A stretch of 35,797 bases of DNA, taken from the NCBI GenBank assembly GCA_026416585.1, contig JAOAEV010000095.1, positions 1 to 35,797 of the forward strand. The letters are read 5' to 3'. This DNA comes from Chlorobiota bacterium. Its GTDB lineage: Bacteria; Bacteroidota; Ignavibacteria; Kapaibacteriales; NICIL-2. Positions 19,845-21,278 of the stretch are shown here, piece by piece. The position numbers and the translations under genes were made by a program. The first letter of the stretch is position 1. Each line of letters begins with the position of its first letter. Under the pieces are notes generated by a model that saw only the letters and a program-made list of their open reading frames with translations, was not told where the DNA came from and did not search any database.

Positions 19845-20111
19845 TTATAGGGGTGTTGTCTCTTTACTTGGTTGCTTCGGTGCATGCTGCTGCAAGCAGC
19901 CGAGCGCGCTTTTGAGCGTTTCCGGTGTGGCTTGTGTCGCTTGCCGATTGAGTTCAATGATGCGGTCGTACACTTCTTTGCGGTGTACTGGAACGTCTTT
20001 CGGTGCTTCGATTCCAACACGGACAATGCCGCGGTCGTAACTCAAGATGGTTATTCTGATCGAATTGCCGATCGTAATGACTTCACCAATTTTTCGTGAA
20101 AGTACTAGCAT
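19845..20111 (-). CDS. csrA: Translational regulator CsrA
   Basis: The start is the ATG of [10 protein letters not shown], the invariant CsrA N-terminus. RNA-contact residues L4 and R6 and the VHRKEVY segment with R44 are present. The core is about 57 residues; an additional ~30-residue tail (to PSKETTPL) makes it 88, longer than usual. CsrA is a dimer that binds GGA-containing hairpins in mRNA leaders and usually blocks translation; FliW antagonises it in flagellated bacteria. It begins one base after the fliW stop, so the pair is translationally linked. A TATAAT overlaps its stop but has no -35 and was not called. Confidence 0.95.
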
Positions 20112-20112
20112 A

Positions 20113-20583
20113 TTATTTCGTCGCCATTTGTTGAATACCAATGGGATGTGCCGTTGAGTACTTGTCCGACGGAATGATAATCTGGCTGCCGCGTTGCTCG
20201 CGAACGTCCAGAATGATAGGTGCTTTCAAGTTTACTGTCGCCCCGCCTGAGCCAAGTGTGAGAATGACCAGTGGAGTGTATTGCTGAAAGTCACTATACT
20301 CCTTGCCGGGAGAATAGTCTGGTACCAGAAAAAACGGGCTGATGACCGGAAAACTTAATTCCGGATGATCAACTGACAGCAGCCAACGGACAGGCTCGGT
20401 TCGATCGTCTCGGACGATGATGAACTGATGAAGATCGTCGAAACCAAGCAAACCATCGGCAAAGAGGAAGATGTGCCGTTCTTCCACGAGTATCTCACCG
20501 AACTGTTCAGTGGCGAGCTTGCGGATGCTTTTCGACGGTGTCGTTGCCGTCATTGATGCAGAATGGAGTGTTGCTGTGTCCAT
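20113..20583 (-). CDS. fliW: Flagellar assembly factor FliW
   Basis: The 156-residue product matches Fli[18 protein letters not shown] near residue 45, [24 protein letters not shown] in the middle, and [28 protein letters not shown] toward the end. Known role: FliW binds CsrA allosterically and also binds flagellin, so flagellin secretion frees FliW to relieve CsrA repression of flagellin translation. ATG 20583 was chosen over ATG 20595 because AAGGA abuts the latter and can only serve 20583, at 11 nt. That AAGGA lies in the loop of a predicted CsrA-binding hairpin. The gene lies between motB and csrA on one strand. Confidence 0.94.
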
Positions 20584-20586
20584 TAG

Positions 20587-20609
20587 ATGTACCATCCTTG
20601 GTTGTACAC
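20587..20609 (-). promoter_or_regulatory. Predicted CsrA-binding hairpin in the fliW leader
   Basis: Read on the minus strand, GUGUAC (20609-20604) pairs with GUACAU (20592-20587), six pairs with one terminal G-U. The 11-nt loop is AACCAAGGAUG. The loop contains CAAGGAUG, which matches the core CARGGAUG of the known CsrA SELEX consensus exactly, with GGA unpaired as CsrA requires. The same AAGGA is the only Shine-Dalgarno candidate for fliW, so CsrA binding would block fliW (and coupled csrA) translation. Confidence 0.6.
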
Positions 20610-20611
20610 GC

Positions 20612-21205
20612 TCAGCGATCGAGTGCGATCAGAATTTCGACACGACGATTTTTCGGCGATGCGGGGTCGGCAACAAGTGGCTTGCTTGCTCCGAAGCCTC
20701 GTACGACCACACGCGATTCCGGTACACCATTGTGTATGAGTGCAGAGGCTACGGCTGTGGCGCGTTCGACCGAGAGGGCGATATTGGTCATTCCGTTGCG
20801 TGGTGCTACTGCGTCGGTGTGTCCATCAACGGTAATTGTCGTGGTACCGTTCCGAAGAGCAGCTGCTAGCTCACCGAGTGCATGCTCTGCAGAAGCATCG
20901 AACCGGCTCGAACCGCGTTCGAAGAGCACTTCGTCAGCAAGCACGCAACGGAATGTTGTACTGTCGTGCTCGATGTCGGCAGGCGACAGCTTTGCCAGTG
21001 CTGCTTCGATCGGGAGCGTCGCGCCGACTGATGTATCGCTCGTATTGGTCGAACCGAATACCGACGCCGCTGCGCGTGCAAGCTGACGGTACCGATCCGC
21101 ATCCGCTCGAAATGTCGTTGAAAGAACCACGAACACACCCACCAGCAGCGTTACCATGTCGGCGTAACTGATCAAGTAGCGATTATCATCCTCGCGCTCG
21201 TGCAT
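20612..21205 (-). CDS. motB: MotB-like flagellar stator protein (OmpA domain)
   Basis: The 197-residue product has a short cytoplasmic N-terminus and one membrane helix (~11-30) with the MotB signature RYLISYADMVTLLVGVF, in which D16 aligns with the proton-carrying aspartate of stators. A C-terminal OmpA-like peptidoglycan-binding domain (~90-197) includes VDGHTDAVAP, LSVERATAVASAL and GVPESRVVVRGFG. It is shorter than E. coli MotB (about 308), with a reduced linker. MotA is not adjacent, though such genes are usually paired. It heads the motB-fliW-csrA-regulator run, supporting a flagellar role. A non-flagellar OmpA anchor is the alternative. Confidence 0.83.
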   Translation of the reverse strand: MHEREDDNRYLISYADMVTLLVGVFVVLSTTFRADADRYRQLARAAASVFGSTNTSDTSVGATLPIEAALAKLSPADIEHDSTTFRCVLADEVLFERGSSRFDASAEHALGELAAALRNGTTTITVDGHTDAVAPRNGMTNIALSVERATAVASALIHNGVPESRVVVRGFGASKPLVADPASPKNRRVEILIALDR

Positions 21206-21278
21206 GGCAACGGTCGTGTGACGTGTTCGTTTGGTGTTATCGGCAGCTCTTCGGAAAACTCAAGCGTTCCGTTGCAAG

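Follow-up and report, generated by a model that had tools for sequence, protein, structure and literature searches.

FliW switches off CsrA, the regulator of flagellin. In Bacillus subtilis, the coupling of csrA to fliW is established, the two proteins are near equimolar and constant, and further systems restricting their abundance have been predicted (PMC6529632). The CsrA consensus reads RUACARGGAUGU (PMC8668096), and two CsrA sites in the hag or fliC leader, one of them over the Shine-Dalgarno (SD) sequence, are a known arrangement (PMC11898703). For the order related to Chlorobiota/Kapabacteria, no CsrA-FliW work was found in the open-access literature. The present analysis concerns a window, i.e. 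the whole stretch of 35,797 nucleotides studied, in which a CsrA-type element lies at the start of fliW; since such elements also occur ahead of the flagellin genes of the order, CsrA probably controls FliW, its own antagonist.

Homologues of fliW and csrA are encoded together in the window, as indicated by Pfam and structure matches, downstream of a motB-like gene:

19845-20111, minus strand: csrA (Pfam CsrA, E 4e-22)
20113-20583, minus strand: fliW (Pfam FliW, E 9e-25; match to FliW structure 5dmb_A, E 7e-14)
20612-21205, minus strand: motB-like gene upstream of fliW (Pfam MotB_plug and OmpA)
21238-21263, minus strand: candidate flagellar sigma-28-type promoter ahead of motB, TTGAG-N14-GCCGATA, found by pattern match

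The alignment of the CsrA product to solved CsrA/RsmE proteins includes the N-terminal MLVLSR and the VHR motif, and the structure matches of the two products include both the FliW and the CsrA chains of entry 5dmb. The order motB-fliW-csrA is the same in the genus members, whose FliW proteins are 68-85% identical, and the fliW stop codon is joined to the csrA start by a 1-nt junction. The promoter pattern has 5 matches in 475 kb and recurs ahead of motB in two genus members (G004 and G007); the candidate in the window (21263-21238 when read on the minus strand) resembles the TAAAG...GCCGATA sequence ahead of flagellin. Gene calls were simple longest open reading frames with deduced start codons. 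From the MD/ME beginning of the protein in all five genus species, we infer that fliW starts at the ATG at 20583. An in-frame ATG at 20595 was considered as an alternative start: it is ATG in three species, ACG in G005 and absent in G004, and 20583 was preferred because the upstream codon is missing in these two genus members while MD/ME is conserved at 20583.

Three overlapping or adjoining features are relevant to the control of this start:

20591-20602, minus strand: CsrA-type element ACC[AAGGAU]GGU, a 3-bp stem closing a hexaloop with GGA at 20597-20595, noted for its core conservation and its likeness to flagellin leaders
20579-20583, minus strand: AUGGA, formed by the fliW start codon and a second GGA, 16 nt downstream of the first and present in all five genus members
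20587-20609, minus strand: 6-bp stem pairing 20609-20604 with 20592-20587 around an 11-nt loop, overlapping and competing with the 3-bp element

The first GGA occupies positions -14 to -12 relative to the ATG at 20583, adjoining the start and ribosome-binding region, and the sequence CAAGGAUG at 20600-20593 agrees fully with CARGGAUG, the central part of the CsrA consensus. Among genes sampled in two genus members, 1 of 626 in the first and none of 381 in the second had CANGGATG within -25 to -1 of the start. The block ACCNNGGANGG is identical at 9-11 of its 11 positions in four of the five genus members, its flanks at only 4-7 of 15, and within it four of the five species share an almost unchanged ACC[ANGGAY]GG; the leader of G005 reads ACCACGGACGG, with the GGA present and two of the ACC/GGU pairs kept. 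The ACC/GGU stem can close around the ANGGAY hexaloop, is weak when taken alone (-1.1 kcal/mol), and displayed no covariation within the genus, being conserved but invariant. The 16-nt spacing between the first ANGGA and AUGGA is kept in all four species retaining the former. AUGGA also stands at the start of about 6-7% of genes, and at fliW it is a possible second contact of the CsrA dimer. As judged from these alignments, what exceeds chance at the fliW start is the sequence core.

The flagellin leaders of the order provide a yardstick for this core. Some 35-45 nt upstream they carry GGCAGGAUGCC or variants of it, and a further site, CANGGAGG, covers the ribosome-binding site; the stem of the upstream hairpin covaries by two-sided changes, appearing as GGC[..]GCC, UUC[..]GAA or UGC[..]GCA. 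The window genome's own flagellin (L159) has CsrA-type sites CACGGATGG at -37 and CACGGAGG at -13, its leader containing UUCACGGAUGGA and ACACGGAGG. A C[ANGGAN]G hairpin architecture occurs in 45 of 54 flagellin/FlgL leaders of the order and is shared by the fliW core. These leaders thus define the CsrA-type element of the clade as a 3-bp stem closing a loop of 5-6 nt; the fliW core fits this form better than the 6-bp stem does. They are likely two-site CsrA leaders in a group beyond those examined to date, the leaders L154-L173 and L294-L323 showing a covarying GGCAGGATGCC-type hairpin together with CANGGAGG at the ribosome-binding site.

The preliminary description of this DNA had instead centred on the 6-bp stem, proposed as a CsrA hairpin presenting the consensus core in its loop. 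Its reading of the letters was accurate: the minus strand from 20609 to 20587 is GUGUACAACCAAGGAUGGUACAU, i.e. GUGUAC-AACCAAGGAUG-GUACAU, with five Watson-Crick pairs, one G-U pair and an 11-nt loop that contains the match to the consensus core, and the hairpin lies between the motB-like gene and fliW, ending 3 nt ahead of the conserved ATG. The two possible stems at the GGA, of 3 and 6 bp, compete with each other. The isolated 23-mer folds into the longer one at -3.5 kcal/mol, but all six pairs together have a probability of 0.02-0.13 when 20-100 nt of flanking sequence are included, and the fliW leader folds no better than shuffled sequences (z from -0.6 to +0.4). In about 475 kb of the window genome, stems with 6 or more bp (counting G-U pairs, with loops of 4-12 nt) surround 300 of 2,806 ANGGA sites (10.7%) and 7 of 66 CANGGATG sites. 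One alternative is that the functional structure displaying GGA to CsrA is the GUGUAC/GUACAU hairpin, as pair columns 4-20 are paired in all four species, three columns bear two-sided changes, and G005 carries a 5-bp stem around the same GGA. Against this, 67% of cells paired and three two-sided changes in the genus alignment do not exceed what shuffles yield (143/500 on cells paired and 63/500 on the changes), and the 11-nt loop is unlike the 5-6-nt loops of the clade. Because of the low pairing in context, the frequency of such stems at ANGGA sites and the conservation matched by shuffles, the stem is no evidence by itself; we set it aside as unsupported in the role of functional element, consider the reading that depends on it very improbable, and note that the six-pair hairpin looks like a chance addition to the core.

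The 3-bp element was then sought across the order as NNC[A(N)GGAN]GN'N' with at least 3 pairs, within -70 to +30 of the start, a definition set after the flagellin leaders had been seen and applied identically to the controls. It was found at 45 of 54 flagellin/FlgL, 27 of 73 fliW, 20 of 46 csrA, 3 of 15 fliS-like and 3 of 291 other genes, the classes other than fliW being assigned by short sequence patterns. For fliW against the remaining genes of these loci, Fisher p = 4e-18, calculated on species that are related and not independent; 1.4 elements would be expected in same-strand windows drawn at random from the fliW loci. Looser definitions keep the excess (e.g. CA(N)GGANG in -30 to +15, 18/73 vs 6/291). 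The background, flagellins and fliW included, is 1.7% in about 0.5 Mb of the window genome and 1.1% in 0.8-1.6 Mb of G006. When 109 ortholog pairs from two genus members were compared, flagellin alone had CANGGA at the same offset in both, with fliW not scored at its 20583 start. By the chosen definition, 46 of the 73 order members have no fliW element, and fliW starts of Lachnospiraceae were not enriched (3/64 vs 48/505), so that the element is no general property of fliW.

Further observations concern the genes gathered in this survey. Small FliS-like genes near flagellin and an FlgL-like gene (L172, L294, the small gene of L302, L313) likewise have a CsrA-type element immediately before their start; Pfam searches with N-terminal pieces of 50-60 residues did not confirm the FliS and FlgL assignments. 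In several families (L092, L114, L116, L138, L140, L143, L152), fliW begins with ATGCAGGATGC, encoding MQDA, followed by a variable linker. The fliW-start 11-mer has few copies in most genomes, and its single copy in G104 is at fliW. The conserved MQDA N-terminus (AUGCAGGAUGCA, other families) may partly reflect protein-level constraint, because a similar N-terminus, MVMQDE or MVLQDE, is encoded in two genera of the window's family with CAAGAC and without any GGA. In G106-G112 (e.g. L091, L092, L114, L116), two tandem FliW domains lie within single open frames of 291-318 aa.

Since CsrA sites resemble SD sequences, the GGA string could simply be an SD-like ribosome-binding sequence whose likeness to a CsrA site follows from that resemblance. 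The preliminary description regarded AAGGA as the only plausible SD of fliW, and it is in fact the sole SD-like string ahead of the gene in the window, ending 11 nt before the ATG; AAGGGA or AAAGGA also occurs at -11 to -14 in two other genera of the family. The genus, however, is SD-poor, with GGAGG in 2.6-4.5% and AGGAG in 1.8-3.8% of start regions (-25 to -1), so AAGGA need not be an SD and a fliW lacking one would be normal. At the AAGGA position, three of the four core-bearing species have CACGGA instead, which makes a poor SD and does not look like SD conservation, and the ACC and GG flanks are conserved as well. Nor were GGAGG/AGGAG enriched at fliW starts across the order (4/73 vs 17/291 others). 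The 16S 3' end was sought in the assembly of the window and in 1.6 Mb of G006, with no match. An explanation by SD alone is judged weaker than a CsrA site, and we hold it to be improbable.

An element of the same kind occurs within csrA. In many order members, mostly of one large family, codons 5-7 of csrA read UCAAGGAAG, a candidate autoregulatory CsrA site inside the gene's own coding sequence; the AGG-AAG pair is used in 19 of 29 csrA genes, in loci where AAG accounts for 26% of the codons for Lys and AGG for 18% of those for Arg. The csrA genes of many loci among L088-L153, from AT-rich genomes, read TCAAGGAAG at these codons. Elements at fliW and at csrA tend to be mutually exclusive, csrA mostly having one where fliW has none: of 67 operons, 46 have at least one element, distributed as 3 with both, 24 with fliW only, 19 with csrA only and 21 with neither (p = 0.003, not corrected for relatedness). 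G004 exemplifies the alternation: among four relatives with the same gene order, in which loss of the stem and GGA would by the preliminary description speak against its reading, it is the one that has lost both the stem and the first GGA at fliW, the GGA being kept in the others, and it carries UCACGGAAG in csrA.

This loss, and the complementary distribution of the two elements, would also agree with feedback acting through another site, either the csrA coding start or flagellin only, and with a weak or vestigial fliW element in the window. The csrA start of the window, TCACGAAAAATT, nevertheless has no GGA, and four species conserve the fliW core more strongly than the sequence flanking it; we therefore give this alternative only a small chance. 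On the distribution of the elements, the FliW-CsrA module may be a direct CsrA target throughout the order, with a feedback element that is kept but changes place between the start of fliW and the beginning of the csrA coding sequence. It would form a double-negative, self-limiting circuit of a kind that has not been described in either B. subtilis or C. jejuni; we put this broader proposal forward tentatively, at slightly less than even confidence.

For the window itself, the favoured interpretation, held with some confidence, is that a CsrA site at the fliW start represses fliW, and csrA through coupling, giving feedback on the FliW-CsrA module. This preserves the earlier suggestion that CsrA feeds back on its antagonist, on grounds other than the stem and SD first cited, namely the GGA core in four of five genus members, its flagellin-like grammar and the enrichment at fliW. 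We infer binding, repression, coupling and the circuit as follows. The hexaloop of ACC[AAGGAU]GGU would offer its GGA to a CsrA dimer, which may also contact the second GGA, in the AUGGA 16 nt downstream; once bound, the dimer would block ribosome access to fliW and lower FliW, and across the 1-nt junction CsrA would probably be lowered too. Accumulated flagellin would hold FliW, leaving free CsrA to repress flagellin, FliW and itself, and on export of flagellin, free FliW would remove CsrA and the module would be made again. As FliW removes CsrA, such a loop would be double-negative for FliW and negative for CsrA, and, if real, would make the level of the entire module depend on the state of flagellin.

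The locus compares most closely with the CsrA-FliW-Hag module of B. subtilis, with which it shares matching FliW and CsrA families, a fliW upstream of and joined to csrA, and a flagellin leader with an upstream CsrA-type site and another over the SD. It differs in that the fliW (or csrA) start bears a CsrA-type element, for which no report was found in B. subtilis; more generally, no report of CsrA control of fliW was found in the main texts of the open-access literature. In the FliC-FliW-CsrA system of Clostridioides difficile, the fliC leader similarly has two predicted CsrA sites, of which one overlies the SD, but the published description used here concerns CsrA control of fliC and no CsrA site in fliW. 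The CsrA-FliW network of Campylobacter jejuni likewise involves ANGGA/AAGGA sites in hairpin loops, many of them in flagellar mRNAs (PMC4894983); a term search of the main text of that paper found no mention of fliW mRNA or feedback. If the proposal is true, the order related to Chlorobiota/Kapabacteria would have a CsrA regulon centred on flagellin and its chaperone together with fliW and csrA. Whether placed on fliW or instead on csrA, a CsrA site would act as an abundance-restricting system of the kind predicted for B. subtilis, and the element at the fliW or csrA start is, with partial support from the sequence comparisons, a variation on the known CsrA-FliW-flagellin circuit.
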